IMG/VR virus record: IMGVR_UViG_3300030104_004678
Span: 1-21,962 of that record
DNA length: 21,962 bases
Source: a virus
Direction: 5' to 3' (one strand)
The first letter of the stretch is position 1. Each line of letters starts with the position of its first letter. The position numbers were made by a program, and so were the translations under genes. Below, one piece after another: positions 258 through 21,962 of this stretch. The notes beneath the pieces are model-generated. The model did no database searches, was not told the DNA's origin, and saw only the letters and a list, made by a program, of their open reading frames with translations.

Positions 258-709
258 TGCAAATGGTAGACAGCAAAGAAAAACTGTTAAAAATGCCAGA
301 AATAGTTCTTATATCTGCACAGGACATAGGTACAGGTGGAGTTCCTTTACCTTCAGCATTAGCAAGTGTTGCAAAAGAAGGTACATTACCCAGTGCGGAC
401 GTAGTACAAGTAGGAAATACTGCATTTCTTGCTCACAGGGGAGAGGGTAAAAATAAAAACAAAGTAATTGGACGAGTCTTTAACGCTGACATAGCAAGAA
501 ATTACATAAAAAATTTTGTAGAATATTTCAAATATTTAAAAAACAAAGGAATTACTCATTATAGTGCTCAATTTAACGGAGAAAGAATGCGTGATTTGTT
601 AAATATAGTAGGGCAAAACATACAAGATATAACAACTAAATTTTTAATTGCCCGCACTAAACGAGAGAACACCTATAGATTGATGGTATCATTTGGTGAT
701 AATCAATGA
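257..709 (+). CDS. Unknown 150-aa protein in the structural operon
   Basis: The product is not recognised. The start is taken as GTG at 257, overlapping the upstream TAG by one base, because a GGAGA ribosome-binding sequence at 245-249 lies seven bases before it; the in-frame ATG at 263 would be 13 bases away. Residues 1-65 are loosely ordered with a GTGGVPLPSA turn-rich stretch. Residues 70-150 look like a compact alpha/beta unit: a helix NYIKNFVEYFKYLKNKGITH, then a helix with GERMRDLLNIVGQN, then a strand YRLMVSFG. That pattern, a helix followed by 'KGITHYSAQF', faintly recalls GNAT-type small proteins placed before internal virion genes in T7-like phages, but no acyl-CoA motif is evident, so this is only a suggestion. 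The 3' end overlaps the next gene as ATGA. Confidence 0.8.
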   Translation: MQMVDSKEKLLKMPEIVLISAQDIGTGGVPLPSALASVAKEGTLPSADVVQVGNTAFLAHRGEGKNKNKVIGRVFNADIARNYIKNFVEYFKYLKNKGITHYSAQFNGERMRDLLNIVGQNIQDITTKFLIARTKRENTYRLMVSFGDNQ

Positions 710-3636
710 GTTTTATAATAGAAACATTTGAAGATATTGTAGAATTTATAGATGATAGTAAAGATTTTGTTGTTGATGATGTAGCTGATCCTATACTTGA
801 TACTGTAACTGCTGTTATAAAAGATGACCCTGTAAAAGCTATAGCTCAAATAACTGCTGTAGCAACAGGACAAACATGGGCATTACCTCTTATTGAAGGT
901 GCAGATGTTGTTCAAAATGGTGGAGATATAGGAGATGTATTAGAGGCTGCAGCAAAGGTGTATGTTGCTCAACAAGTGGGTAGCATGGCAGGAGAGTATG
1001 CAGGCACGGCAACACAGACAGCAACAAGTTCTGAAGTAGCAGCATCTGTGATAGGAGCAGGTGTAGGATCAGCCGCATCTGCTGTTATATTAGGGCAAGA
1101 CCCTATAGAGGCACTAAAAACAGGTGGTATATCTGCAGCTATTGGAGCAAGTATAGGGCAACTTGAAACAAATACAGGGTATGGTAAATTACCACCATCA
1201 GCTAAAGCAGTTATAAATGCAGGCATCACCGCTGCTGTTACAGATGGAGAAATATCACCACAGGCTCTTACAACAGCTTTAGTGCAATCAACTGTAACTA
1301 CAAATATAATTGATAAATATGTAAAAGATAATCCAGATTTAAGTGAAGCAAGCCAAGCTATATTAACTGACAGTATATTAGCAGCGAGTAAAGCTGCTTT
1401 TAGCGAAGGTAATGTAACTCAAGAAGTAATGAATGCAATTACAAATCAAGGGTTCAAACAGCTTACAGCTGGACTAGAAAACTTAGTAAAAACAGGAAAT
1501 GTGCAAGGAGTAAAAGATAGTTATGATGTGCTAAAAACAACAGCATCTTCTATAACAAATGAGTCAGCCTCTTTAAAAGATAACATAGCAGAACATAATA
1601 AGTTAATAAGTGAACTAAACCCACGATTTACGGAACGTGATAGGCTATATAATATTATGGAAAGTGCTAGAATAGATGATAATAGAGACCCTACAGTAGA
1701 AACAAGAACAACACTTAATAACGCTATAACAGCTTATAATGAGTATGCAACACAACTTAATGATGACTATTACAATAATTATCAAACTAAAATAGAAGAT
1801 TTAAAGTTTAAAATAGACAAATCACAGTTAGATATAACTGGTTTTGAAGATACTTATGAGAAACAATACAATAAGTTAGTAGCTAGTGCTGATAAATTAG
1901 ATGATGATACTGCACCTATATACAGCACAGCAGAAAAAGTATTTACTCTGGGTATGGATGAAACCTTTAACCCTGATGAGTATGCATCTTTAAACAACTT
2001 AAGTGAAGACCAAGACCCATACTATCATTGGCTAACAATAGGTAAAAATGATGGGCTACATACTAACAATGCATCTTACAAAAATGAGTATGACCAGAAA
2101 CAATTTAAAGTATTACAAAATTCTCTTGCAGTTGCAGGTTTAGATGTAACTAACTTATCTAAAGAACAGATAAAAGAAGGTTTAACAACAATAAAAAATC
2201 AATCAGATGGTAAGATTGAAAATTTAAACAACATAAATGTAACAGAACTAGGAACAAATTTTGGGTCAAACTATTTATCAATGAACCCTTTAAATCAAGT
2301 TGTTGATACAGCAGATAAACTTACGTTAGAAGATATAAAAAACAAAACTAGTGGGTTTGTAAGTGAACTTATTGGCATTAATCCAGCTGGAGCTAGTGAC
2401 CTTGACATAGCCAGCGGTGCTGCTGTTATAAGTGTAAATGATGATGGAGGATTAGAATTTAAAGTAAGTGATCCTTTTGCCCAATGGGATAATGCAAGTG
2501 GACAGAAGGTATCAAAAGAATTTAAAAGACCAACATATAATACTGATGGGTATTATACAGTAAAAGATACAAAAGGTAATACGTTAGATAATATAACAAT
2601 AGATAGTTATGTTAGTTTTGTTAATAAGGGTGGAATTGAAAATTATGGGGGGAACCCTACAAGTATAGGTGCATATGCAGAATATCAACAGTCTCTGGGA
2701 TTTGAGACTTTCTCGTCTAGTGACGAGATGGAAATTACTAGACCTCTAGTACTAGACCCCACGCAAACATACACAGAGTCTGAAGATGGGAGTTTTTCTA
2801 TAATTAAAACACCTGAAAACTCTAATATAGCTGGAACAACATTGGCAGACACATTTAAAACAGACCCACAATCTGCTGTTAAAATAACATCAGGTCTATC
2901 TCAAGATGTAAAAGATGTTATAAATGAACAGGTTGGTCTAAATGTATATGATTTTTCTCAAGCTTTAAATACATACGCAAGTGCTACACAACCAGACGTG
3001 CCTATAGAACAAACAGAAATATTTAAAAATATAGGCACAGAAATAACACAAGATGATATTGATGCATTAAATACGGCAGTATCTGGCATGGGGGGACAAG
3101 AAAGTGATGGTGCAGAGGGCACAGATGTGGTACAAGATACTACAGGAGTTGGTGATTATTTAGGTACAATAGGAGATTATCAAAGTCAAATAGCCAATTT
3201 AACAGGTGAAATAACAGGTTTAGAGGGTACTGTAGGTGAACAAGCAGGTACGATAACAGGGCAACAGAGCAGTATTTCTGAATATTTAGACACCATAAGT
3301 GGTTTACAGGGTGACGTAAGTGGGTTAGAAGATATAAAGGGTGGTTTAGAAGGTCAGGTAGGTGAGTTAGAAGGTGAAGTAGAAGGTTTAGAAGGTAAAA
3401 TAGGCGAAACGGAAAAAGCAAAACAAGCATTTCAACAAGTGGGAGCCATGCAACAATTAGGACAACTTTTACAACCAACTATTGTAGAGCCAATAGAAAA
3501 GGATGACAAAACACCAGATATTATTACACCTTATGATTTTAGTAGCATATTTGCTACTCCTGAAGAAGAAGAGAGACTTATAAGTCCATACGATAGAAAT
3601 GAAGAATTGTTAAAACTTATAAAAGGACAAACATAA
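706..3636 (+). CDS. Large internal virion / ejection-type structural protein (976 aa)
   Basis: The ATG at 706 overlaps the upstream TGA and follows GGTGA at 695-699. Residues 1-30 are acidic. Residues 45-150 are rich in Ala and Gly with hydrophobic stretches (VAASVIGAGVGSAASAVILG, GGISAAIGASIG), as in tape-measure or DNA-ejection proteins that insert into membrane. Residues 285-400 are helical and charged. Residues 421-451 (FNPDEYASLN...YYHWLTIGKNDGL) resemble one copy of the 'FDpxxYLxxNPDV...HYlxxGwxEGR' repeat seen in bacterial surface proteins. Residues 820-905 form a heptad repeat (LEGQVGE, LEGEVEG, LEGKIGE) with Leu and Val/Ile at a/d positions. No enzymatic motif is seen. It is the first of five large proteins in a row, matching the position of T7 gp14-gp16 type proteins. 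The role is inferred from composition and context. Confidence 0.75.
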   Translation: MSFIIETFEDIVEFIDDSKDFVVDDVADPILDTVTAVIKDDPVKAIAQITAVATGQTWALPLIEGADVVQNGGDIGDVLEAAAKVYVAQQVGSMAGEYAGTATQTATSSEVAASVIGAGVGSAASAVILGQDPIEALKTGGISAAIGASIGQLETNTGYGKLPPSAKAVINAGITAAVTDGEISPQALTTALVQSTVTTNIIDKYVKDNPDLSEASQAILTDSILAASKAAFSEGNVTQEVMNAITNQGFKQLTAGLENLVKTGNVQGVKDSYDVLKTTASSITNESASLKDNIAEHNKLISELNPRFTERDRLYNIMESARIDDNRDPTVETRTTLNNAITAYNEYATQLNDDYYNNYQTKIEDLKFKIDKSQLDITGFEDTYEKQYNKLVASADKLDDDTAPIYSTAEKVFTLGMDETFNPDEYASLNNLSEDQDPYYHWLTIGKNDGLHTNNASYKNEYDQKQFKVLQNSLAVAGLDVTNLSKEQIKEGLTTIKNQSDGKIENLNNINVTELGTNFGSNYLSMNPLNQVVDTADKLTLEDIKNKTSGFVSELIGINPAGASDLDIASGAAVISVNDDGGLEFKVSDPFAQWDNASGQKVSKEFKRPTYNTDGYYTVKDTKGNTLDNITIDSYVSFVNKGGIENYGGNPTSIGAYAEYQQSLGFETFSSSDEMEITRPLVLDPTQTYTESEDGSFSIIKTPENSNIAGTTLADTFKTDPQSAVKITSGLSQDVKDVINEQVGLNVYDFSQALNTYASATQPDVPIEQTEIFKNIGTEITQDDIDALNTAVSGMGGQESDGAEGTDVVQDTTGVGDYLGTIGDYQSQIANLTGEITGLEGTVGEQAGTITGQQSSISEYLDTISGLQGDVSGLEDIKGGLEGQVGELEGEVEGLEGKIGETEKAKQAFQQVGAMQQLGQLLQPTIVEPIEKDDKTPDIITPYDFSSIFATPEEEERLISPYDRNEELLKLIKGQT
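3178..3411 (+). repeat. Heptad-coding repeat inside the 976-aa gene
   Basis: Degenerate 21-base units of the type GGTTTAGAAGGT are repeated within the coding region. At protein level they give G-L-E-G-x-[IV]-G heptads with alternating 4/3 spacing of Leu and Val/Ile, a regular coiled-coil register that is unusually rich in Gly. The repeats can recombine, so length variation between related phages would be expected here. Confidence 0.7.
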
Positions 3637-4375: not shown

Positions 4376-5287
4376 ATGGCGGAAAGTGATATTTCAGGTA
4401 TAACAGACGATTTAGTACCAGATAGCGAAACTGTTGGTAAACAAACAGGTATAGAGTCTTCCTTATCTACATATGCAGGGCCTTACGTTGGTGATATGCT
4501 TGGTACAGGTCAGGCATTAGCAGATTTACCTTATGAGCCTTATGAAGGGCCTCTTACAGCAGCTGCATCAAATTTACAAACAGATGCGTTTTCAGGTATT
4601 GCAGGGCTAACTGTGCCCACTGACGAGCAAATGGGTGTGTACAACCCTATGAGTATAACAGATGAAGGTTTTGATCTAACAGGTTACATGAATCCTTTCC
4701 TTACAAATGTTGTAGATGACCAGATAGCTGACTTAAAACTTGAAGCAGATAAAAGAAAATTAGCAAACAGGGCAAGAATGACTGCTGCTGGTTCTTATGG
4801 AGGTAGTAGACAAGCTGTGCAAGAAGGGTTAGTTGAAGCAAAATTACTTGATGATATTTCACAAGCCATAAATACAGGTAATGTACAGGCATATGAACAG
4901 GCAATCAAACAGTTTAATCTTGAACAAGATAAAAAAGCTACAGCTCAAGATAAAGAAACTGAGTATGGGTTTGACGTAATTAACAAACTTGCTGAATTAG
5001 GGGGTGTTAAACGTGGTATAGAACAAGAAGGCATTGATGCAGATATAGCACAATTTGAAGAAGAAATGAATTATCCATATAAACAAGTTCAATTTATGCA
5101 ATCATTATTGCAAAACTTACCTCTTGAAACACAACAATACTCATATGCAGAACCTAGTGAATTTGCAAATATGCTTTCAAGCTCGGGTGGTTTATTAAAA
5201 TTATTTGAGATACTATTTGGTGGGGGCGATAAGGAACCAGAACCAGAACCAGAAGAAGATAAAAACGAAGAAACAGCTGTAGGGTAA
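4376..5287 (+). CDS. Internal virion-type protein with MNPF...GGSRQA motif
   Basis: The ATG at 4376 lies two bases after the upstream stop, with GAGGG at 4364-4368 seven bases before it. Residues 30-60 are rich in Tyr, Pro and Gly. Residues 104-150 hold YMNPFLTNVVDDQIADLKLE and then ARMTAAGSYGGSRQAVQEG, a pattern (MNPy...AGaFGGSRQAi) common in structural proteins of marine podoviruses. Residues 150-250 are strongly helical and rich in Gln, Glu and Lys. Residues 271-284 form a short hydrophobic patch (GGLLKLFEILFGGG), followed by a very acidic tail with EPEPEPEED. It sits amid the ejection-type protein genes, so an internal core or head-tail role is likely. No enzymatic signature is seen. The family resemblance is from memory; the function is inferred. 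Confidence 0.75.
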   Translation: MAESDISGITDDLVPDSETVGKQTGIESSLSTYAGPYVGDMLGTGQALADLPYEPYEGPLTAAASNLQTDAFSGIAGLTVPTDEQMGVYNPMSITDEGFDLTGYMNPFLTNVVDDQIADLKLEADKRKLANRARMTAAGSYGGSRQAVQEGLVEAKLLDDISQAINTGNVQAYEQAIKQFNLEQDKKATAQDKETEYGFDVINKLAELGGVKRGIEQEGIDADIAQFEEEMNYPYKQVQFMQSLLQNLPLETQQYSYAEPSEFANMLSSSGGLLKLFEILFGGGDKEPEPEPEEDKNEETAVG

Positions 5288-7341: not shown

Positions 7342-10300
7342 GTGGCTACTCTTCAAGAGATTGGTAATTGGATACTTACTAATCAAGATAAAAAAGGTAC
7401 GCCTGATTTTGAAACTGTAGCTAACGCCTATAGACAATTAAGAGCTAAATCTTTTGAAGGACTACAAAAAGAAAGACAAACAAAAGAACAAACTTTTCAA
7501 GATGAGTTAAGAGCGTTACGTGAAAGTGCAAGAACACCTGTAACGCCTGTTGAAAAACCTCCTAAAGATAAAGTAACAGTTGCTGACCAGTTTGAAGAAT
7601 TTTTTAAAGGTATTCCGGGTGGGGCAGCTGGGTTTGCAGAAAGTGCCGCTCTTGGTGTAACTGCACCAGAAGATATAGTTGGGTCTGATGTGCTACGTTC
7701 AGGCGTAAAAGCAGTAGGTGATGTAGGAGATAAAGTATTTGGTGCAGACCCTGGCTCAGAAGAAATATTTGGACGTAAACTTGGAGAAACAATAGGTTCT
7801 TTTGGAGCGGGCATAGCTGTTACCCTACTTAACCCGTTACTAGGTATAGGTGCATTTACTGCTGCAGGTGCTGGAGAAGCAAGAGAACGTGCAAAACAGG
7901 CAGATGCTACCAAAGGTCAAACGCTTGGTGCTACAATACTGGGTGCTGGTGTAGGTGCAGCAGAAACATTTGCTCCCCTAAGATTTGTAAAAAGATTTAA
8001 ACAGGCACGTGGTGCTAAAGAAGTAATGAACATTAGGACAAGAGGTAAGAGAATACTTGAGTCCGCTGGTGAAGAGGCAGCACAAGAATTTGCAGCTGCT
8101 GTAGCTCAAAACCTTATAGAAAAAGGAATATATAACCCTGAAAAAGGTGCATTTGAAGGTTCTGTAGAGCAGGCAGGATATGGTGGTGGTGTAGGTGGTC
8201 TTGCTCAAGGTATATTTGATTTAATAGCCCCTCGTAGCAGAGGAGCAGATAAAGCTATACAGGGTGAGCTGTTTGAGGGTGAAGACTTAGGACAGGCTCC
8301 TGTAACTGACACACCTAAAGATGATACAAAACAAGGAGATTTATTTGAAGGTGAAGATTTAGGGGAGACTCCTGTAACAGAACAGCCCAAAACAGATACA
8401 AAACAAGAAGAGTTATTTGATTTTGATGAAGAAGGAAAAGCAACACCTAAAAAACAACCTAAAGTAAAAACGGAAGAAAAGTTACCTGAACAGCAAGAAT
8501 TATTTGATGATGCTGTACCTAAACCACGTGAGATAACACAAGATTTATCACCTGAAGGACAATTAGAACTTGCAGACCCTGAAAATTTGGCTAGAGCAGG
8601 AGTAGTAGATAAGATAACAAAAGAAGCTCCTATAGCCACAGTAACAAGTGGAGAAGAACTTAACTCTGTAGTAGGTAACTTAAAACAAGAGGTAAAAACA
8701 TCTAAACAAGAAGATACAAGTAAAAATACAAATGCATTTGAAATAGATAAAGATGTATTTAGCCCTTCAACCGAACCTCAGTTGGTTGATAATAGAAATA
8801 AACCTGACCCTAAAGAAAACTTTCAAAATGTAGATATATCAGGGGGTAATAAAGAAGGAACTATAACCAGTCCTGTAAAATTAAAAGCAGAGTTTGATAA
8901 AATTAATTATGAACCTGAAATTTCATTAACCCCAACTGACGTCTTAACAAAGAACCTTTTATCTACATATAAAGATGCTTTACCAAATATAAAAATATTT
9001 TCTGATGTTGCTCCTTGGACAGGTGCTCATATGGACGGTGGGGTCGCTATACAACATGACATTGCAACAGCAGGAAATACAGACTTAATAGCTTATATAA
9101 TGGCCCATGAATTAGGGCATGCATCACACTCTCTTCTTGGAGATAAAGTAAACAAAAATAAAAACATAAAAAAAGAAATAAAAGATATAGAAAATGTATT
9201 ATATCCTGACCTACGAGAGAGGATAATACAAGCTGAGGCTGAAGGTAAAAATGTAGATACTACATTATACAATTATTTACTTTCTCCAGAAGAGTTAATA
9301 GCCCAGTTTAATGCTCTTAGAGTAGCTAGTCCTGAAACAGCAGACATGCTAGCACCTACCTTATCTAAATTATTAAAGTCAGTAGAAAAAAACAAAAATT
9401 TAGTAAAGCCAAGAGACGTATTTAGAGGATACACAAACCACAAAGTTAGCGGTAATTTTGATGCAGAGTTAAATCCTATTATTGATTTTGAGTCTTTTAA
9501 AGGTAACAAAGGCAAAACACCTTTTGATGTAGCACGTAACAAATATTATAAAGAGTTTAGAAAAACAGACGATTTAAATAAAAAACAAGAGATATATAAC
9601 GACTTCTTAAAAGGTAGTTGGTATGATTCTTTAGCTAAAAAAGACATGGGTGATGTGCCTACACCTGTAACTAAAACTGTGCCACAACCAGTCAAACGTA
9701 AGACAACACGTAAAAAGAAGTTATCAGAAGATATTAAAGAAAAAGTAAAAGTTATTAGGCAAAGAAAAAAGGTTGTAACGGAAGCAGATAAAGCAAAAGC
9801 TAAAATAAAAGAAGGTAAGGTTATATCAAAACCAGATAGAAAACCAACAAAACCTCAAGTAAAGGCTGAAAAAAGAAAAGAACTTACTCGTGCTAAAGTT
9901 GAGGGTCAAAAATTAAAAGAAAGATTAAGAGACGATAACAAGTTAGTTTTAAAAGAGCAGATTGCTAAGAGAATACGAGAAATAAAATATTTTAAAAAAA
10001 GAGTAGCAACATTCAAAGACCTGCAAGACATAACACCACGAAGTAAAAAACCTGAAGGTACATCTCTTCAAGACTTTAGAAAAGCAATGCCTAGTTTTGA
10101 AGCAGGTGATTTTTTAGATACAAGTGATTTGAAAAAAATTGTAGAACTTATACGGTCAGATTTTACAACTACAGAGTTTTCGCAGGCATCATCAAAAACA
10201 GGTAGAGGAGTAAAGTCGCCTCGTTCAATGGCAAGAATGTATTTTTCTAAAAATGAAGACCCTAATGAAACAGTAAATCATATAGTGTACGACACTTTAA

Positions 10301-13300
10301 ATAGTTTAGTGTCTAAAGATAGAGAAATATACTCAAAAGACAAAGATTCTACCGAAGGAGAGATAGCATACTTTAGCTTTACGGGTGGAGAAAATGCACA
10401 GCTAGCCTTTCAATGGCTTGAAGCTAACTTATCTAAAAAAGGTTTGGACAGTATAGCTGAGTTAGGAGAAATACATAATGTTAACAGTGAAAGAAATACA
10501 GGAAAAAGATACAAAGAAAGAGTAAGACACGTAAAATTTGATGCTAAAGTAAGTAAAAGACAAGAAAGATTAGATGCAGCAGAAGCATATAATGTGGCCG
10601 AAAAAGACCTTACAAAATTTATGTTAAAAAATTACAGAGCATCAAGCCAGAGTAAAGCTATACAAACAGGCATGCAAAAAGCTCGTTTTATTGCAATGAC
10701 CCCCGCACAAAAAGCTGTTTATAACAAACGTGTTAAAGAGCAAGAAAAACAGATAGCAAAAGATAAAGAGATAGCAGAAAAAAAAGCGAAACAAATACGA
10801 GAAGATAAAGAAATACAAGACATTGTAGATGAAATAATGTCTAGTAAGAAAGCTCGCACAGAAACTAAAAATACAGAAAAACTAAGAAAAGCTTTATTTA
10901 ACGATAGCGAAACTTTAACTGTTGCTGATGGAGAAGTTTATAGAGTTGACCCTGTAGAATCTCCTAGAACAGAGCTAGACCTTGGTAAAACAGCCGAAAA
11001 AAATAGTGGTTACAGATTTTTATATGCAGATGAAGTAGCTAGTTTAGACTTTCCAATGCATCCAATGATAGAAAAGTTATTACGGCAAAGCAATTTAGAA
11101 GGTGCTTTACGTGTCATGCAGATAACTGCACCTACAAAACGTTTAAGACAAATAGCTAAAGGCTTGCAACAAGTTGTGGGCACAACCAAAGTTAGGTTTG
11201 TGTCTGACCATAAAGATGCATCAGGCAGGGCAGCAGCAGGCTCATTTGATCCAAAGACAAATACTATTCGACTTGACCGTGACACTGGTATCAACTTTCA
11301 CACTATAATTCATGAAGCCGTTCATGCTGCTACTTTAGAAACACTTGCTGATAAAAGTAACCCGTCAACAAAAGAAATTACAAAGTTATTTAATGAAGTA
11401 AAAGATTCATTGCATACAGCAGATGGAGCAAGAAACGTAGAAGAGTTTGTATCAGAAGCACTAAGCAATGTAAGGTTCCAACAAAACCTTGGGCAGTTAA
11501 ATGTAAAGGGTGAGCCGTTTACAGTTCTTCAAAGATTTAAAAATGCTATAGCCAACTTAGTTAGACGTTTACTAAGAATGGAAACTAAAGGTTTAGAGTC
11601 TACATTAAATAAAACAGACGAAGTAATTATGGGCATGTTATCTCCTGCACCAAGTAAGAGAGATGCAGGTGAAGTATTCTCCTTACATGAAACGGGCAAA
11701 AACATACAGGGTCTGGTAGATAGCTCTCTAAAAAATATACCTGTATACAGCAAAGAAATAGGTAATAGAATAAAAGATAGACTGTCAGACAATCTTGTAC
11801 CTGATGCAGGTAAAAGTGCAATATTAGGATTGTTACCTCTAAACGCATTAGCAGACATAGCCAAAGGTATAGTGCCGGGAGCTAAAGATTTAGAAAGATT
11901 ATTATATGAACAGGCAGGTTCTGTAGCTAAAGCACGGGCAAAGATGGAGCCTGCAATAAAAAGAATATCTGCATGGGGTATGGCTAACCCTAAATTACAA
12001 GAAGATTTTAACAACGTGATATATGAAAGCACGTTAGAACAAGTAGACCCATCTAAAAATAGAAATGTGTATTTAAAAAATAAAGAAAAATTAAAGATAT
12101 ACGATAAAATGCACAAAAATGAATGGAAAAGGATAGGAAAAGAAGGACGTGACCATTTTCAAACAATGAGAAATTTATATAAATCTCAATATAATGAAAT
12201 AGAACGTGTTCTTAAAACTAGAATAAAAGAAACTATAGACCCAACTAAATCAAAGACAACAGTATTTGATGAAATGTATAAAAAGTTATTTGAAAGTGGT
12301 GTTATAGACCCATACTTTCCTTTAACAAGATCGGGTAAATACTGGTTATCATACAATGCTATAGATGGTAGAACTGGAAAAAGAGAATTGTTTGTAGAAG
12401 CATATGAGAGTAAACCTGAACGTAACAAGGCCATAAGAGAAATAAACGATACTCCTGAGTTAGAAGCAACTGATGTTGAGCCTTTTGCTAATGTTAATGA
12501 AATAAATTATAAAAATGCTCCAGATGCATCATTTGTAAACGAAATACTAACATTAGCAAAAGCAGGCAATGTACCTGTAGAAATACAAGATCAAATTATG
12601 CGATTGTATTTAAATGCTTTACCTGAACGTTCTTTTGCTCAGTCTATGAGAGTTCGTAAAGGTACTTTAGGATTTAAAAGAGATGCTATAGGTGCATTAG
12701 AAACTAAGACTAACGAAATATCAAGACAGCTTGCTCAAATAGAGTTTGGGTATAAAATACAAAAAGTTCGTGGCGAAATGAAAACACAGGTAAGGAATAA
12801 ATCTGATAACGAGTTAGCAGTGCTTTATCAAAAAGAATTAGATCAAAGAGCTCAGTTTGGTATGAATCCTGATGTTCAAAATTGGGCTAAGTTTGGTACA
12901 AGCATGGGGTTTATGATGACGTTAGGATTTAACGTGTCATCTGCATTTGTAAACTTATCACAGTTGCCTATGGTTGTGTTTCCTTATCTTGGTGGTAAAT
13001 ACGGTTACACTAAAACTATGAAAGCTATGGGTAATGCAAGTAAAGTATTTGCATTTAGCGGTAGAAAAAGAAAACAAGAGTCTATAGGCCCTAACGGAGA
13101 TATTGTAGAAACTGTAGGTGCATTACAATCTTTAGATAATTATGATTTTGATGCTGTTAATACACCCGCAGAAATAAAAAGATATAAGGAACTAGCAGAG
13201 GTTGCTGGTAATTTTGGTCAGTTAAATAGGTCTATAACCTATGACATGTTAGATGTACATGATAACTCTAAAAGTAAGTTTCAAAAGTTCAATATGTTTT

Positions 13301-14484
13301 CAGGGTTTATATTTCATCACGCAGAAAGATTTAACAGGCAAAATGTTTTAATAGCTGCATATGATTTAGAGTTAGATAGTTTAAAAGCTCAAGGCAAAAC
13401 TATTGATAAGGCCGCAAGAATAAAAGCCGCAGAAGATGCTATTTATATAACAGAACTTACAAACAGTGGTGCCATAGCAACCATGGCTCCTAGATTTGCA
13501 CAAAGAGGTGTTGGTAAGATAGCTTTCTTGTTTAAACGATATGGCATATCTATGTACTATATGCTAGCTAAATTAACAAAAAACACGTTTAAAGGAGAAG
13601 AAAGAGCTGTAGCTGCAAGACAACTTGCAGGCATATTTGGTATGTCTGGACTTATAGCAGGAGTGCATGGGTTACCTCTTTTTGGCGAACTTGCTCAAAT
13701 ACATGACATGTTGTTTGAAGATGAAGATGAAGATGACTTTGAAACTTCAGTACGTAAGACTATAGGAGAACCTTTTTACAACGGTGTATTTAACTATGCA
13801 TTTGGAGTAGACGCAGCTAGTCGTATGGGATTATCTAATCTTGTATTTAGAGAACCACTTATTAAAAAAGACCAGCCTAGTTTATATACAGGCATTGAGA
13901 TGTTAGGAGGCCCTGTTGTAGGCACATACTTAAATATGAATAGGGGTGTTAATCTTTTATCTGATGGAGAACTGTACAGAGGTACAGAGGCAATGCTCCC
14001 TGCTGCATTTAGAAACGTGCTTAAATCTTATCGTTTTGCCACAGAAGGTGCTAACACGTTAAACGGTGATCCTATAGTAGAGAACATAGGGCCCTTTCAT
14101 TACGCTGCACAGGCCATGGGTTTTGCCCCTGCAGAATACACTAGAAACTTACAGTTTAATCAACACTTTCAAAAAATACAGAAGTACGAAAGAGAAACAA
14201 AAACTAATCTCTACAGAAAATACTACAGAGCTCTAATGGAGGGCGACAGAGATATGAACAAACTGTTTAAAGAGATATTAGAATATAATAGAAGATTCCC
14301 TCAATCAGCTATAACACCTGATGGTATTATGAGGTCTTTAAGAGCCAAAGCACAATCAAAAGCCCGTATGCACAACGGTATGGTAATTAACCCTAGATTA
14401 AGAGCCGAGCTTTATGAGGACGCTGCTGAATGGGGTAGCACATCAACTATATGGGAAGATATAGGACTCGCATTTACTGACTAG
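7342..14484 (+). CDS. Giant polyvalent-type virion protein with two zincin motifs (2380 aa)
   Basis: This is probably the largest ejection protein, comparable in place to T7 gp16 and in make-up to phage 'polyvalent proteins' with LPD domains. The GTG start at 7342 is two bases after the previous stop with only a weak AGGT upstream; the opening LQEIGNWILTNQDKKGTPDF...VANAYRQLR is a recurrent N-terminus in such proteins. Residues 90-300 are Gly/Ala-rich and partly hydrophobic. Residues 307-388 hold four QxxLF peptides on an acidic linker. The first zincin motif is HELGH at 589-593 with candidate third ligand E650/E651 in SPEELIAQ. Residues 780-900 are highly basic. The second is HEAVH at 1324-1328 with E1372 in EEFVSEALSN. 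From about residue 1860 (LGFNVSSAFVNLSQLPMVVF) to the end is a long domain I recall from marine phage giants, with a hydrophobic stretch near 2095-2120 and acidic EDEDEDDFE near 2127. No lysozyme or transglycosylase motif was identified. Protease activity is predicted, not shown. Confidence 0.85.
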   Translation: MATLQEIGNWILTNQDKKGTPDFETVANAYRQLRAKSFEGLQKERQTKEQTFQDELRALRESARTPVTPVEKPPKDKVTVADQFEEFFKGIPGGAAGFAESAALGVTAPEDIVGSDVLRSGVKAVGDVGDKVFGADPGSEEIFGRKLGETIGSFGAGIAVTLLNPLLGIGAFTAAGAGEARERAKQADATKGQTLGATILGAGVGAAETFAPLRFVKRFKQARGAKEVMNIRTRGKRILESAGEEAAQEFAAAVAQNLIEKGIYNPEKGAFEGSVEQAGYGGGVGGLAQGIFDLIAPRSRGADKAIQGELFEGEDLGQAPVTDTPKDDTKQGDLFEGEDLGETPVTEQPKTDTKQEELFDFDEEGKATPKKQPKVKTEEKLPEQQELFDDAVPKPREITQDLSPEGQLELADPENLARAGVVDKITKEAPIATVTSGEELNSVVGNLKQEVKTSKQEDTSKNTNAFEIDKDVFSPSTEPQLVDNRNKPDPKENFQNVDISGGNKEGTITSPVKLKAEFDKINYEPEISLTPTDVLTKNLLSTYKDALPNIKIFSDVAPWTGAHMDGGVAIQHDIATAGNTDLIAYIMAHELGHASHSLLGDKVNKNKNIKKEIKDIENVLYPDLRERIIQAEAEGKNVDTTLYNYLLSPEELIAQFNALRVASPETADMLAPTLSKLLKSVEKNKNLVKPRDVFRGYTNHKVSGNFDAELNPIIDFESFKGNKGKTPFDVARNKYYKEFRKTDDLNKKQEIYNDFLKGSWYDSLAKKDMGDVPTPVTKTVPQPVKRKTTRKKKLSEDIKEKVKVIRQRKKVVTEADKAKAKIKEGKVISKPDRKPTKPQVKAEKRKELTRAKVEGQKLKERLRDDNKLVLKEQIAKRIREIKYFKKRVATFKDLQDITPRSKKPEGTSLQDFRKAMPSFEAGDFLDTSDLKKIVELIRSDFTTTEFSQASSKTGRGVKSPRSMARMYFSKNEDPNETVNHIVYDTLNSLVSKDREIYSKDKDSTEGEIAYFSFTGGENAQLAFQWLEANLSKKGLDSIAELGEIHNVNSERNTGKRYKERVRHVKFDAKVSKRQERLDAAEAYNVAEKDLTKFMLKNYRASSQSKAIQTGMQKARFIAMTPAQKAVYNKRVKEQEKQIAKDKEIAEKKAKQIREDKEIQDIVDEIMSSKKARTETKNTEKLRKALFNDSETLTVADGEVYRVDPVESPRTELDLGKTAEKNSGYRFLYADEVASLDFPMHPMIEKLLRQSNLEGALRVMQITAPTKRLRQIAKGLQQVVGTTKVRFVSDHKDASGRAAAGSFDPKTNTIRLDRDTGINFHTIIHEAVHAATLETLADKSNPSTKEITKLFNEVKDSLHTADGARNVEEFVSEALSNVRFQQNLGQLNVKGEPFTVLQRFKNAIANLVRRLLRMETKGLESTLNKTDEVIMGMLSPAPSKRDAGEVFSLHETGKNIQGLVDSSLKNIPVYSKEIGNRIKDRLSDNLVPDAGKSAILGLLPLNALADIAKGIVPGAKDLERLLYEQAGSVAKARAKMEPAIKRISAWGMANPKLQEDFNNVIYESTLEQVDPSKNRNVYLKNKEKLKIYDKMHKNEWKRIGKEGRDHFQTMRNLYKSQYNEIERVLKTRIKETIDPTKSKTTVFDEMYKKLFESGVIDPYFPLTRSGKYWLSYNAIDGRTGKRELFVEAYESKPERNKAIREINDTPELEATDVEPFANVNEINYKNAPDASFVNEILTLAKAGNVPVEIQDQIMRLYLNALPERSFAQSMRVRKGTLGFKRDAIGALETKTNEISRQLAQIEFGYKIQKVRGEMKTQVRNKSDNELAVLYQKELDQRAQFGMNPDVQNWAKFGTSMGFMMTLGFNVSSAFVNLSQLPMVVFPYLGGKYGYTKTMKAMGNASKVFAFSGRKRKQESIGPNGDIVETVGALQSLDNYDFDAVNTPAEIKRYKELAEVAGNFGQLNRSITYDMLDVHDNSKSKFQKFNMFSGFIFHHAERFNRQNVLIAAYDLELDSLKAQGKTIDKAARIKAAEDAIYITELTNSGAIATMAPRFAQRGVGKIAFLFKRYGISMYYMLAKLTKNTFKGEERAVAARQLAGIFGMSGLIAGVHGLPLFGELAQIHDMLFEDEDEDDFETSVRKTIGEPFYNGVFNYAFGVDAASRMGLSNLVFREPLIKKDQPSLYTGIEMLGGPVVGTYLNMNRGVNLLSDGELYRGTEAMLPAAFRNVLKSYRFATEGANTLNGDPIVENIGPFHYAAQAMGFAPAEYTRNLQFNQHFQKIQKYERETKTNLYRKYYRALMEGDRDMNKLFKEILEYNRRFPQSAITPDGIMRSLRAKAQSKARMHNGMVINPRLRAELYEDAAEWGSTSTIWEDIGLAFTD
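8260..8508 (+). repeat. 72-base tandem repeat encoding QxxLF peptides
   Basis: Two 72-base units start at 8260 and 8332, a diverged third starts at 8404, and a last partial copy starts at 8491. Each begins with the codons of Q-x-[ED]-L-F: QGELF (residues 307-311), QGDLF (331-335), QEELF (355-359) and QQELF (384-388). The first three are exactly 24 residues apart. Between them the linker is acidic, with EGEDLG and PVT in the first two units. The frame is kept throughout, so this is an in-frame protein repeat rather than a DNA site. Confidence 0.85.
14481..14484. other. Interlocked stop codons of convergent operons
   Basis: The palindromic tetramer CTAG holds the TAG stop of the giant plus-strand gene (14482-14484) and the TAG stop of the minus-strand 75-aa gene (14481-14483). 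The two transcription units therefore meet with a four-base overlap and no intergenic space. I found no hairpin with a T-run on either side close by. Confidence 0.9.
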
Positions 14485-14708
14485 CTGACTCTCCATACAC
14501 GAACACCTAATTTGTCATCTTCTATAACAACACGGGTTTCTACTTTCCAGTTCTTTTGCTTTGCTATATTCTTAATTTGTTTAACCGCTGCCTGGGTGTT
14601 AATACACAAGATAAATACAGAGTAACTTATTAACATATGTTCCCAGTTGACTCTAATCCTTATGCCATCAGGGTTTAGATCGTCTTGTTTAAGTACCAAG
14701 ACCTTCAT
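14481..14708 (-). CDS. Unknown 75-aa protein at the end of the replication operon
   Basis: The product is not recognised. ATG at 14706-14708 is preceded by a weak purine-rich AGAGAAAG. The start lies inside the 3' end of the primase gene, a 20-base overlap that suggests coupled translation. The protein has a hydrophobic strand or helix at residues 26-40 (LISYSVFILCINTQA), a basic helix (AAVKQIKNIAKQKNW), and a beta-rich end (VETRVVIEDDKLGVRVWRVS). This is a plausible small alpha/beta fold with paired strands; the end 'TRVVIED...GVRVWRV' looks like a conserved phage tail sequence, but I cannot name it. Being the last gene before the convergent stop, it ends in the shared CTAG. Real-gene status is likely from packing and protein-like composition, and the ORF is short, so some doubt remains. 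Confidence 0.65.
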   Translation of the reverse strand: MKVLVLKQDDLNPDGIRIRVNWEHMLISYSVFILCINTQAAVKQIKNIAKQKNWKVETRVVIEDDKLGVRVWRVS

Positions 14709-17487
14709 CTTTCTCTATGGAACAATCTACTATGATTACATCTGAAGGTGGTAAATTCATATGAGTGCCTTTACTTAACCTCATCTTACTTCTACGGGCC
14801 CCAAGCTTAGTCTGTAAATCATGTATAAACGAGTTATAGTTTATCTGTTGATCGCCACACCAAGCCTTCAAAGGTTTAGGAACAAGGTAAGCTCTTTTTA
14901 AATCTGTTTCATACCGAGCAACTAATCTACCTCTAGGCAATGCTTCGGGTATGATAATCTGTTCTTTCTCTGTCTGTTTGCGTAAATCATCTGTGCTTTT
15001 TATCCACAGCACATTACTCCAATGCTCATGTATGTAATCATTCAGTACTTCCTCAACTGAAGTACTCATATCGGATACTTGACGCTTATTTTCTTTTAGC
15101 TGTTCAACTCCCCATTTAAATATAGCACGAGAATCATAATTTAGTAACCCTGCCTTCTTAGCTATTATTAGTCCAGTTACAGTATGTGATACTAATACTG
15201 ACCAAAATCTATTCTCTGCTGTCAACCCTGCAGCTGCGTCTACCTTTGCTTGCACATCGTTCAGTAACTTCTTAACACCGTCAAGGTTTCTCATAACATA
15301 CTGAATGTATTCCTTGCCTGCATGACCACAATTATCATGTATCGCACTGCTAAACACATCTGTTTCTTCTTTTGTTTCAAACTGTATGCGTTTAACCCTG
15401 CACTCCATTATCCTTTGTGCTTCCGCTTTTGGCATAGCTTTTATTATACTAATACGTTCTATCATACTTGTATTACCAGTAGTCACGGCTAGCAGTCTCC
15501 AAGATTCACCTCTGACTCTTTCCGTATTACTACCACTAGACATTCTACCTCTTTGCCTACCACCCGTCAGTTGGTACGCTATATTACTAAGTTCTCTGCC
15601 GTGTGTATTAGTTAACTCATCCATATACAATGGCAGGTTGTGGTATACTTCACCTCTGTTCATCTTGGTGTTAAACGTATCTCGTTCATGAATAATAAGG
15701 TCTTCAGGTCTGCCCCATATAGAAGCTCCTGCTGCCATGGCTGTTGTCTTACCAACCCCTGACTCCTTACTGTATATATGTAACCCTGCACAGTTTATAG
15801 GCGAAAACTGCATTAACGGTGAACCGAACGAGGTACCAACAACAAACTGGTGTAGCTCAAAACCATCTCGGTTATAAAAATTAATTGCTTCTTTCCAACC
15901 TTCCATAGTGCCCTTTGGTTCAAAAGCTGTGAACAACCCTGCTGTTTGTGTAGAAGGTGGGTTGAAGTCAACCTTGTCTTTAAATATTTCCTGATTACCG
16001 ACTACGAATGATTTGCATTCTTCTCCTGCCCACCCAAATTGTCTATGTGCTTCATCTGCCATACTGTTTGCCTGTAATTGGTTTACCCACGTTGTTGTAT
16101 ATGCCATTAATTCATCCATCCTTGTAACTGCCACGCCTTGCATGGACATATGTTTTCTAAATTCTTCCCTAGAGGTTACAGCAGTTAATGGTAATGTAAA
16201 CTCCCGTACCCCATCTTTTGGTAGGTGCAAACGCATCACTACGGCTTCCCCAATCTCCACATCTCTCAGTCGCCTGACAACGTATAAGTCGTTATGATAT
16301 ATTAACTTATCTTCTGCTTCCCCGTCAGCGTTTGTACTACGGATATATACACCTCCATTTACACCTCTAAAGTATGGTTTAGGGTACATCGGAATCTTGT
16401 ATTTGTTAAGTGGTGTATCAGGTAAATCAAAGGCAGGGGCTTCTATAATATTATCTTCTTCTGTAGCTTCACGCACTCTATGACCTAACGTTATTGGAGA
16501 CTTTATCTTACCCCAGTTAGGACAGCTTGTACATATATCAGGACTATATTCATCAAACGTACTACACAGATAAGGGCCTTTTATAGCTTCCATCTTCCTG
16601 CTAGTCTGTTCTTGCGTGTACTCAGGATGCTTATTTGATATAAGATGAGATGCTTTCTCTGCGTCAACACAATGCTTTGTGATTGATAGTCCTGCCCTCC
16701 ACAATGGCTCGCTTATCTCTCCCTGATTAATCATTATGTGTTTTAGTTGTCCACAGCCCTTACCCTTTTGTGTCTTAACAAGTATATCTTTAAACACGCT
16801 TTCAATGTTATCTCTTAATGCATCGAGCGTAGGGTTGTTTTGCGGGGTGCGTTTTTGAGGGACTTGTACCAAATCTTCACCCAACAGTTCTGAAAAGTAA
16901 TCTACATCTATTGGAGCTGTTAATTCGATTCCAAATAAACCTACTTTGCTTGGTGGGTCAGTTTTATAGTTATGTGTGTTAGGTATCCTAAGTACACGTG
17001 CTGCATCTGCTGTTACTGCAGGGTCTGCTAACAAGTTATTATGCGAGCATAATCTTTTGAGTCTCTCAGCAATAGGTAGCCAATTTTGTATACCAACTGG
17101 TTCTTTTAAAAACCAATATACATGTACACCTCTTCCCGAGTTTATCATTGTGGGTCTAGGCAGTCTAAACTTCATACAAAAAGATTTTAATGCTTGGATA
17201 GCTTCCTCTTGAGTCTTGTAATCTTTACCAAGCCCACAATCTAAATCTAAAAAGAAACTGTTAAGTTCCTTTACGTTATCTACCTTCCTCGATCCTGCTT
17301 CCTTAAATGTGGCTAATGCAAAGTATGCATCATAACCTTCTTTGTCTAAATTTTCTGATACGTCTACAATATCATCTATAGACGAATAGAACTTTTGTAT
17401 TCTCTTGTCATCACGAGTTCTAAAAGCAAATACACAGTAGTTGCCTTCCTTACTCAATACTTTATTTAAAAATGTTCTTGTTTCCAC
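14689..17487 (-). CDS. AEP-type primase fused to DUF927-like helicase ATPase
   Basis: This protein probably primes and unwinds DNA at the phage fork. With the GTG start chosen here it has 932 residues. The N-terminus carries archaeo-eukaryotic primase signatures: FFLDLDCG with D81 and D83, SGRGVHVYW with H122, and ADPAVTADAARVLRIPNTHN with D155 or D161 as a likely third acidic residue. Residues 240-325 have a primase C-terminal-like region with GCGQL, LWRAGLSI and three Cys (308, 319, 322) able to bind zinc. Residues 485-740 resemble DUF927 ATPases: SGVGKTT with K580 (the first Gly of a classic P-loop is missing), LPLYMDE with D623 and E624, TGGRQRGR, and TTGN as a sensor. GTG at 17487 is chosen because GGGGGA lies just upstream; an in-frame TTG at 17532 would add 15 residues but has no such site. 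It overlaps the 75-aa gene. The domain calls are confident, the priming activity is inferred. Confidence 0.85.
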   Translation of the reverse strand: METRTFLNKVLSKEGNYCVFAFRTRDDKRIQKFYSSIDDIVDVSENLDKEGYDAYFALATFKEAGSRKVDNVKELNSFFLDLDCGLGKDYKTQEEAIQALKSFCMKFRLPRPTMINSGRGVHVYWFLKEPVGIQNWLPIAERLKRLCSHNNLLADPAVTADAARVLRIPNTHNYKTDPPSKVGLFGIELTAPIDVDYFSELLGEDLVQVPQKRTPQNNPTLDALRDNIESVFKDILVKTQKGKGCGQLKHIMINQGEISEPLWRAGLSITKHCVDAEKASHLISNKHPEYTQEQTSRKMEAIKGPYLCSTFDEYSPDICTSCPNWGKIKSPITLGHRVREATEEDNIIEAPAFDLPDTPLNKYKIPMYPKPYFRGVNGGVYIRSTNADGEAEDKLIYHNDLYVVRRLRDVEIGEAVVMRLHLPKDGVREFTLPLTAVTSREEFRKHMSMQGVAVTRMDELMAYTTTWVNQLQANSMADEAHRQFGWAGEECKSFVVGNQEIFKDKVDFNPPSTQTAGLFTAFEPKGTMEGWKEAINFYNRDGFELHQFVVGTSFGSPLMQFSPINCAGLHIYSKESGVGKTTAMAAGASIWGRPEDLIIHERDTFNTKMNRGEVYHNLPLYMDELTNTHGRELSNIAYQLTGGRQRGRMSSGSNTERVRGESWRLLAVTTGNTSMIERISIIKAMPKAEAQRIMECRVKRIQFETKEETDVFSSAIHDNCGHAGKEYIQYVMRNLDGVKKLLNDVQAKVDAAAGLTAENRFWSVLVSHTVTGLIIAKKAGLLNYDSRAIFKWGVEQLKENKRQVSDMSTSVEEVLNDYIHEHWSNVLWIKSTDDLRKQTEKEQIIIPEALPRGRLVARYETDLKRAYLVPKPLKAWCGDQQINYNSFIHDLQTKLGARRSKMRLSKGTHMNLPPSDVIIVDCSIEKDEGLGT

Positions 17488-17491
17488 AATG

Positions 17492-17497
17492 TCCCCC
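17492..17497 (-). promoter_or_regulatory. Ribosome-binding site deciding the primase start
   Basis: On the minus strand GGGGGA lies four bases before GTG at 17487 and can pair with the anti-Shine-Dalgarno sequence with one G-U pair. The upstream TTG at 17532 has no purine-rich site before it. Confidence 0.6.
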
Positions 17498-17511
17498 AAC
17501 ACTGAAAATTT

Positions 17512-17543
17512 ACTGCGACCAGTGTATTTCAACCAGTCGCAGT
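17512..17543 (-). promoter_or_regulatory. Hairpin between the SSB and primase genes
   Basis: ACTGCGAC (17512-17519) and GTCGCAGT (17536-17543) are perfect 8-base inverted copies around a 16-base loop. In the minus-strand transcript the hairpin begins eight bases after the SSB stop and ends 15 bases before the primase ribosome-binding site. It is followed by AAATTTT but not a proper U-run. It could be an attenuator, an mRNA-processing or stability element, or a translational control site. If the TTG at 17532 were the start, that codon would sit in the loop. Confidence 0.6.
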
Positions 17544-18927: not shown

Positions 18928-18956
18928 TATATAGTTACTAGTAATGTCTTAGTCAA
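18928..18956 (-). promoter_or_regulatory. Predicted sigma70-like promoter for the downstream replication genes
   Basis: On the minus strand, TTGACT (18951-18956) matches the -35 consensus in five of six bases, and TATATA (18928-18933) serves as a -10, with a 17-base spacer. The -35 uses the last codons of the helicase gene (CTT GAC TAA). The expected start site would leave a leader of roughly 20 bases before the ATG at 18898, with AGGAGA inside it. The -10 matches TATAAT only in four of six bases, and the surrounding AT-richness makes chance matches easier. Confidence 0.55.
18935..18944. promoter_or_regulatory. Palindrome in the promoter spacer, possible operator
   Basis: TTACTAGTAA is a perfect 10-base palindrome lying wholly between the predicted -35 and -10. 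This is a classic place for a repressor site. No second copy was noticed in the other intergenic gaps of the window. Confidence 0.45.
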
Positions 18957-20788: not shown

Positions 20789-21453
20789 CAATTACTCCCA
20801 TTATGTATACATTCTATAACAACGCAGTGCCGTTTACACAACCCACTTGGGTGTGCATTCCACACGTCTTTATCATAAGCTGTTTTCATACGCTTAAAGT
20901 TAGATATCCATTTTTTCCATAGTGTTACAATCATATCATCAGTGTAGGTTTGTGCAATAAAATTATTAGATACGACAAATAATAACCCTGCGTTTATCTT
21001 CTTTACATTTGGGAAGTACCTAAATGTTGCAAGTGCCATCAATTCCAACTGACCCTTATCAGCGTATAACGCAGACTTACTTGTCTTATAGTCTACAATC
21101 CATGCTCTATCTCCATCAACTATAGCCAAGTCAACTATACCACGCCACCAAACATCATCAGCATTAAAGTCGCATGGTTGAAGTTTTTTCGTAAGACCCA
21201 TCTTCATCTCACAGTATCTATTACCTTTTTTCTTCTTGAGTGAGTCAAGCACTGGCTTCATATACATAAACTTCTTAGGTATTGGCGTGTTACCACACAT
21301 ATACTCTTCAGCCGCAGCATGTGCGTCCGTTCCGTAACGCATGGCACGAGTCTCTTCTTCTATGTAGTCCTTAGCTATTTTTACGTGGTAGAATTGTTTT
21401 GGGCATTGTTCAAATGCTTTTATTCTACTGAACGACCAAGGCGATATACTCAC
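20788..21453 (-). CDS. PD-(D/E)XK nuclease, Cas4/RecB-like
   Basis: The 221-residue protein is probably a DNA exonuclease or end-processing nuclease of the replication/recombination module. Motifs in order: SFSRIKAFEQCPKQFYH (5-23), GTDAH with H45, a candidate E82, GIVDLAIVDGD with D108, VDYKTSK with D121 and K123, and Q135 in GQLELMA. C17 together with C206, C210 and C215 near the end (GLCKRHCVVIEC) gives the one-plus-three Cys layout used for an iron-sulfur cluster in Cas4 and AddB. The start is GTG at 21453, overlapping the polymerase stop as GTGA, with GGAGA six bases upstream. All catalytic positions are present. The fold and class are confident, the cluster is inferred, and the biological substrate is unknown. 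Confidence 0.87.
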   Translation of the reverse strand: MSISPWSFSRIKAFEQCPKQFYHVKIAKDYIEEETRAMRYGTDAHAAAEEYMCGNTPIPKKFMYMKPVLDSLKKKKGNRYCEMKMGLTKKLQPCDFNADDVWWRGIVDLAIVDGDRAWIVDYKTSKSALYADKGQLELMALATFRYFPNVKKINAGLLFVVSNNFIAQTYTDDMIVTLWKKWISNFKRMKTAYDKDVWNAHPSGLCKRHCVVIECIHNGSN

Positions 21454-21962
21454 TCGCAGTCTCCATAGTTTTTACCAATTCCTGATTCGCAGTCAATCGG
21501 TAGTTTTTGTATTCCTTGAGCCCATATGGGTGCAGTTCGCATACATTCCTCTGTATATTTACGTGCATCTTCTACTTCTTCATCCCGTACACAACACACT
21601 ATCGAGTCATGAACTGTGAGAACTACACGATACTTCTTGCTGATTTCTAACATCTGTTCACCAATTATGCAACGAGCGATGGCTTGGCATATGTTCTCCA
21701 CAACCTTACCACCATATATTTTTGTGCGACCTCGCCTAGTTTGATAGTGAAAATCCATGCCTTCATCTGTTTGGTCAGCCCTTAAATCTTCGTATTTCAT
21801 CTGTAGACCTGATGGCAGTTTTAGAGAATAGTATTGAGGTAGTACTTCTATTGTGCTTTTGGGAAACTTAAACCCTTCGCCATTGACCATGTTCTTCAAC
21901 ATATGTTGTGCATTTCTCCATAACTGGCTAATCTTCCAGTTGGCATCACGATAGATACCAAT
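21450..21962 (-). CDS. Family A DNA polymerase, C-terminal part
   Basis: The replicative polymerase runs off the window edge: 170 residues are visible from position 21962 down to the TGA at 21450-21452, and the frame stays open with no in-frame start needed at the internal ATG (21902). The visible part is the end of the palm domain. It has YGGKVVENICQAIARCI, then VVLTVHDSIV, motif C of family A polymerases with catalytic Asp (VHDS where T7 has VHDE), and the closing LPIDCESGIGKNYG. The exonuclease domain and motifs A and B are outside. It overlaps the nuclease gene by four bases, implying coupled expression. The identification is strong; nothing can be said of its upstream domains. Confidence 0.9.
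   Translation of the reverse strand: MGIYRDANWKISQLWRNAQHMLKNMVNGEGFKFPKSTIEVLPQYYSLKLPSGLQMKYEDLRADQTDEGMDFHYQTRRGRTKIYGGKVVENICQAIARCIIGEQMLEISKKYRVVLTVHDSIVCCVRDEEVEDARKYTEECMRTAPIWAQGIQKLPIDCESGIGKNYGDCE

Follow-up and report, generated by a model that had tools for sequence, protein, structure and literature searches.

A disordered, acidic linker in a giant phage protein carries an array of clamp-binding-like pentapeptides whose pattern is kept in many relatives, and we consider it likely that this linker docks on the host sliding clamp (DnaN, the β clamp), whatever the consequence of such docking. The window, i.e. the whole stretch of DNA that was analysed, is the 21,962-nt IMG/VR record IMGVR_UViG_3300030104_004678, and all coordinates given here are positions within this stretch. 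Its source is an uncultured, probably aquatic phage. The features relevant to the analysis are the following.

4376..5287, + strand: protein weakly similar to DNA ejection proteins, two genes upstream of the giant gene (phrog_4287, E 2e-5)
7342..14484, + strand: giant polyvalent (PLxRFG / DarB-like) protein, 2380 aa, GTG start (NCBIfam NF032893, 391 bits; phrog_10089, E 1.9e-83)
7567..8250, + strand: N-terminal all-helical Gly/Ala-rich domain, aa 76-303, family-defining, preceding the array (alignments; AlphaFold helices)
8251..8931, + strand: acidic linker, predicted disordered, aa 304-530, holding the array (pLDDT; composition)
8260..8274, + strand: pentamer 1, clamp-binding-like QGELF, residue 307 (sequence)
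8272..8420, + strand: 72-bp tandem repeat, 2.1 copies, 82% matches, carrying pentamers 1-3 (repeat search)
8332..8346, + strand: pentamer 2, clamp-binding-like QGDLF, residue 331 (sequence)
8404..8418, + strand: pentamer 3, clamp-binding-like QEELF, residue 355 (sequence)
8491..8505, + strand: pentamer 4, clamp-binding-like QQELF, residue 384 (sequence)
8560..8574, + strand: degenerate QLELA, residue 407, without terminal F/L (sequence)
9106..9120, + strand: HELGH, zincin-like metallopeptidase motif, aa 589 (sequence motif; pLDDT of the predicted fold 40)
11311..11325, + strand: HEAVH, second zincin-like motif, aa 1324 (sequence motif)
11800..12291, + strand: LPD39 (large polyvalent protein associated domain 39), aa 1487-1650 (Pfam PF18858, 41.7 bits, cutoff 27)
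12310..14403, + strand: C-terminal PLxRFG 'tail-700' domain (NF032893)
21450..21962, - strand: the phage's own DNA polymerase A, C-terminal part, running off the window (PF00476, E 6.6e-7)

By its sequence features, namely the PLxRFG/DarB-like match, LPD39 and the two HExxH motifs, the giant protein is a large polyvalent protein of the class described in PMC5512222. The NF032893 score of 391 bits stands against a cutoff of 100, and the match covers the C-terminal 700 residues, which DarB-like phage proteins also match; LPD39 supplies the polyvalent-associated domain, at least one of which marks the class. A structure model of the zincin-like region reaches a pLDDT of only 40, and a scan with this region as query gives matches in the two nearest relatives only. 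Solved structures searched by sequence with the giant protein return no match, and fold searches with its N-terminal domain return no significant one. A Pfam search of all 2380 residues finds no methylase and no SNF2 helicase domain. The antirestriction protein DarB unites methylase and SNF2 helicase domains on a single polypeptide. Elsewhere in the window, a separate SNF2 helicase gene lies at 18949-20484 and a DUF927 primase-helicase at 14689-17532; with the latter as yardstick, the nearest cultured relatives are Pseudomonas phage Rollin and Rhizobium phages RHph_TM27A/TM3_14A. The family of an upstream 976-aa protein (706-3636) shows a conserved YDFSSIFA.P near the end, followed in many members by QE.[LM]F..PY. 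This QE.[LM]F was rejected as a motif array, for it belongs to a conserved segment and is missing in the window's copy.

The four pentamers and the weaker QLELA stand at the residues at which an earlier note on this DNA had read them, and their coordinates also bear out its statement that the first three copies are exactly 24 residues apart, copy 4 beginning 29 residues beyond copy 3. All Q..LF of the 2380-aa protein, four in number, fall in the array. Among 20,000 whole-protein shuffles (mean 0.35 Q..LF), four or more occur in 10, and four within 82 residues in none. The placement of the motifs in a flexible segment, likewise claimed earlier, agrees with the AlphaFold prediction (36 sequences, to aa 440), in which pLDDT is mostly 70-90 up to residue ~240, the helical domain extends to ~260, and values over aa 304-440 are mostly 36-56 except in a small predicted hairpin near 351-370. 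The motifs are thus predicted to lie in a disordered segment or loop, motif 3 adjoining the hairpin. However, copies 1-3 form one tandem repeat and are not independent, so that the count in the window alone is weaker evidence than it looks. The repeat comprises copies 1, 2 and the start of copy 3, and its unit, QGELFxx(x)DLGxxP, extends beyond the pentamer. When copy 2 is compared with copy 1, codons 1-11 (QGELFEGEDLG) differ by six synonymous changes and one conservative change (E/D), and the next 13 codons by two synonymous and five non-synonymous changes.

The stronger evidence comes from homologues, which we defined by the N-terminal helical domain (aa 76-303). Our searches found this domain in viral contigs only, with no match in species genomes or cultured phage records at the sensitivity used. 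The linker that follows it is mostly unalignable between relatives at 40-50% domain identity, yet Q..LF recurs. In the main set of 53 non-redundant homologues (<80% identity), the 250-residue stretch that follows the domain contains 50 Q..LF where 1.36 are expected and 1000 shuffles yield at most 7; in a held-out set of 23 further homologues, fetched once the hypothesis was fixed, there are 12 against 0.6 expected (maximum 4 in 1000 shuffles), numbers to be read knowing that the shuffles ignore shared ancestry and that repeat duplication inflates the counts. The excess is specific to Gln at position 1, Leu/Met at 4, Phe at 5 and their spacing: in the main set, other first residues (A..LF, E..LF, K..LF etc.), Q..LA, Q..EF and other spacings match expectation or come close to it, and the reversed FL..Q occurs once. 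A chance origin of the array is rejected by the family, held-out and whole-protein shuffles alike.

The six-residue form, Q..[LM].[FL], is enriched as well, with 30 occurrences in family linkers against ~10 expected, and Q is the only one of 14 first residues tested for which this holds. The enriched spacings are 2 and, in addition, 0, the latter being the in-phase Q[LM].[FL], i.e. the same motif read from positions 2 and 4. Over the 100 aa that directly follow the domain, Q..LF reaches 5.4 per 1000 aa, and its density falls to 0 between +400 and +600; the remaining proteins encoded on these contigs have Q..[LM]F at 0.15 per 1000 aa. Known or consensus clamp motifs are found among the relatives (QLDLF, QLNLF, QMSLF, QLSLDL, QLELPL, QLQLDF, QIEMPF), five motifs in L153 alone (QLELPL, QGELF, QLSLDL, QLNLF, QLALDF). 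The window's QGELF is shared with L004-L007 (as QGELFEGLDL) and L012, and L013 has QKELF in place of its QEELF. The flanks of the pentamers have roughly twice the acidity of the linker as a whole; automatic clustering of the flanks chained nearly all of them into one cluster.

Two further patterns were seen in the same region. A third Gln motif, Q..[LF]PG[LMIV] (QMSFPGM, QLPLPGL), was counted in 13 of the 76 members where shuffles give 0.25, mostly in one clade, and lies ~270-310 aa after the N-terminal domain (L086, L158, L172 and others; at 211 in L031); it could be a heptameric clamp motif or the site of another partner. In L075, L081, L086, L158, L161, L164, L172 and L174, a conserved QAFGGLAK is followed by Q..[LM]F some 370-412 aa after the domain, with positions 2-3 varying (GD, KE, QE, RE, GE, QD) and Q, L/M and F constant. 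Q[IV]PLF near +1300 in many homologues resembled further motifs but was read as part of the conserved PLxRFG motif of the folded C-terminal domain and not counted.

The bacterial clamp motif takes two forms, Q-phi-x-[L/M]-[F/L] and Q-phi-x-[L/M]-x-[F/L], with Gln at position 1, Leu or Met at 4, Phe or Leu at 5 or 6, tolerance at positions 2-3 and acidic flanks (PMC11139829). All four window pentamers possess this core of Gln 1, Leu/Met 4 and Phe/Leu 5 or 6. QLELA is probably non-functional, because the terminal Phe/Leu is required according to the same source. Position 2 of the window pentamers is G, G, E and Q, which departs from the aliphatic preference of the strong, though not strict, form; the affinity of each single site is probably weak, given that Leu is strongest at position 2 in E. 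coli. In Pseudomonadota replicase α subunits (DnaE, n=50), the forms of the pentamer aligned with the E. coli-type QADMF include QGGLF, QENLF, QDGLF, QHDLF, QNDMF and QSALF, and position 2 includes G, S, E, D and N. This freedom in natural α subunits means that G, E or Q at position 2 does not exclude the window pentamers. A DinB-family positive control, with crude frame selection, gave few clear motifs, and the DnaE control performed better. The Y-family polymerase loci L284, L286, L291 and L295 have P-[PD]-D-L-[VI]-D near the C-terminus, which resembles phage linker segments such as EPDLVDRM and QPDLLDVI; this may be coincidence.

The motif is mobile and non-obligatory. A pentamer occurs within 420 residues after the domain in 42 of 76 members and is absent there from the other 34, and on the tree its presence requires 18 changes, at least 14 of them forced by supported branches. 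Such repeated gain and loss speaks against a role in packaging or structure and agrees with a linear motif directed at the host. We do not count it as support by itself, because loss of the motif had been named as a possible refuter: the earlier note held that homologues keeping the linker while losing Q, L and F would speak against clamp binding. On this point the outcome is divided, with 34 of the 76 linkers lacking the pentamer on one side and the strong Q..LF enrichment across the family on the other. The question it had raised of whether homologues conserve Q..LF beyond the linker around it is answered positively by both homologue sets, and its clamp-binding interpretation is, at the level of sequence, supported.

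If the target is a clamp, it would be that of the host, since the large contigs of the family (54-68 kb, which may be incomplete) encode DNA polymerase A in 15 of 15 cases and a β clamp in 0 of 15. We infer binding, injection and effect on the host from these data. Injection of the giant protein with the DNA is probable by analogy, given its polyvalent/DarB-like family, the neighbouring ejection-protein-like gene and the co-ejection of P1 DarB with DNA (PMC12810830). That many relatives keep the peptides while the rest of the linker changes suggests that the host clamp is probably seized by these phages as infection begins.

Based on the above data, and on the precedent of phage proteins aimed at DnaN or the clamp loader (PMC3594737), we propose that the linker acts as a multivalent docking segment for host DnaN. 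Each Q-x-x-L-F, and in relatives also Q-x-x-[LM]-x-[FL], would sit in the hydrophobic cleft used by host polymerases and Hda, and several weak sites, spaced by ~16-29 residues along a disordered acidic tether, could through avidity occupy the two clefts of the dimeric ring together. With the protein delivered alongside the DNA, host clamps would be occupied before any phage gene is expressed; Pol III would be driven off and replication of the host would stall, and/or the giant protein, together with its metallopeptidase-like modules, would be kept at the replisome. More tentatively, and as a possibility that we would not yet press, this uncultured phage lineage may package a multivalent host-clamp trap in an injected protein, seizing replication ahead of gene expression, with motif number and form repeatedly retuned, perhaps to each host clamp.

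The simplest rival is a plain linker repeat, in which a 72-bp tandem duplication has arisen in a disordered acidic spacer that has no binding partner. Although window copies 1-3 do form a tandem repeat and units of QGELF..DLG..P recur in relatives, this reading appears improbable: Q, L and F are kept in differing flanks (AFE[QPDLF]ALEQEQ, GRP[QTDLF]P, QAFGGLAK[Q..[LM]F]) with positions 2-3 varying, no residue other than these shows the pattern, the hexamer class is enriched although a repeat does not predict it, and the motif half of copies 1 and 2 differs mostly by synonymous changes. Equally improbable is a linear motif for a different partner, which might be a phage virion protein, with the peptides serving as a signal for packaging or assembly, or a host protein other than the clamp. 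One would expect all members to keep a packaging signal, which does not agree with a motif gained or lost at least 14 times, and we know of no bacterial receptor other than the clamp for both Q..LF and Q..L.[FL]; on the other hand, linear motifs with unknown partners are common, and one pattern of this region, Q..[LF]PG[LMIV], does not belong to the textbook clamp motifs. Improbable too, in our estimation, and marginally more so, is that the protein's own zincin-like metallopeptidases recognise Q-x-x-L-F and cut the giant protein after delivery. The two HExxH motifs lie within the same protein, and PMC5512222 proposes that polyvalent proteins are processed by zincins, but the sites are confined to one linker (density 0-0.16 per 1000 aa from +400 to ~+1200), cutting does not need tandem sites 16-29 residues apart, and the pattern corresponds to the clamp consensus in both its forms.

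A variant of our proposal shares the docking step and its motif evidence and differs in the outcome: the clamp would be bound for the benefit of the phage, the injected protein carrying host clamps to the entering genome to serve its repair or early replication, or else protecting that genome from clamp-linked nucleases. RecBCD is reported to contact the clamp (PMC13254535), which would suit such a role. We regard this variant as rather unlikely, though worth serious consideration, as these phages encode a primase-helicase, an SSB and a polymerase A of their own, and the PolA reading frames show no clear clamp motif. Because the phages bring their own polymerase A, in which such a motif is not evident, and no clamp in the large contigs, we prefer blockade or capture of the host clamp to the loading of phage replication.

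If host-clamp docking is correct, it would represent a first-minute takeover in which a peptide array delivered with the DNA strikes at the hub on which bacterial replication centres. One part of the large polyvalent proteins, a class in which most modules are without known function, would thereby gain a concrete role open to testing, and the array would provide natural multivalent clamp ligands, of interest as the clamp is an antibacterial drug target. It would also suggest a cheap route for inferring delivered functions in other phages, through host-hub linear motifs that outlive their disordered linkers.

The giant protein shares LPD39, two HExxH motifs, the C-terminal PLxRFG and its giant size with the large polyvalent proteins of phages and conjugative elements (PMC5512222; NF032893). 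The main text of that 2017 survey makes no mention of clamps, DnaN or linear motifs, and novelty is stated relative to a partial coverage of the literature. DarB-like proteins of seven cultured phages have no array, with 2 hits in ~24,800 aa against 3.2 expected, and the array is rejected as a general DarB-like trait for these seven; the distant uncultured PLxRFG relatives L306, L307, L313 and L314 have single motifs. With the established clamp-binding proteins (Pol III α, Pol II, Pol IV, UmuC and Hda; PMC11139829), the array has in common Q1, L/M4, F5 or F/L6, a location in disorder or a loop, and acidic flanks, whereas those proteins carry one or two motifs and serve replication or repair, and here up to five stand in tandem in a giant phage protein. 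Eukaryotic regulators of the Spd1 type (cited in PMC11139829) likewise combine several clamp motifs, a disordered chain and competition, but their tandem motifs are of the PIP type, bind PCNA and are regulatory and non-viral. Among phage proteins, Twort gp168 and G1 gp240 act against DnaN and N4 gp8 against HolA, i.e. against host clamp or loader (PMC3594737). They are considered here as functional analogues only, alike in the host replisome as target and in the outcome proposed here; they are separate proteins listed as shutting off host replication, whereas the present array is part of a giant protein that is probably virion-borne.
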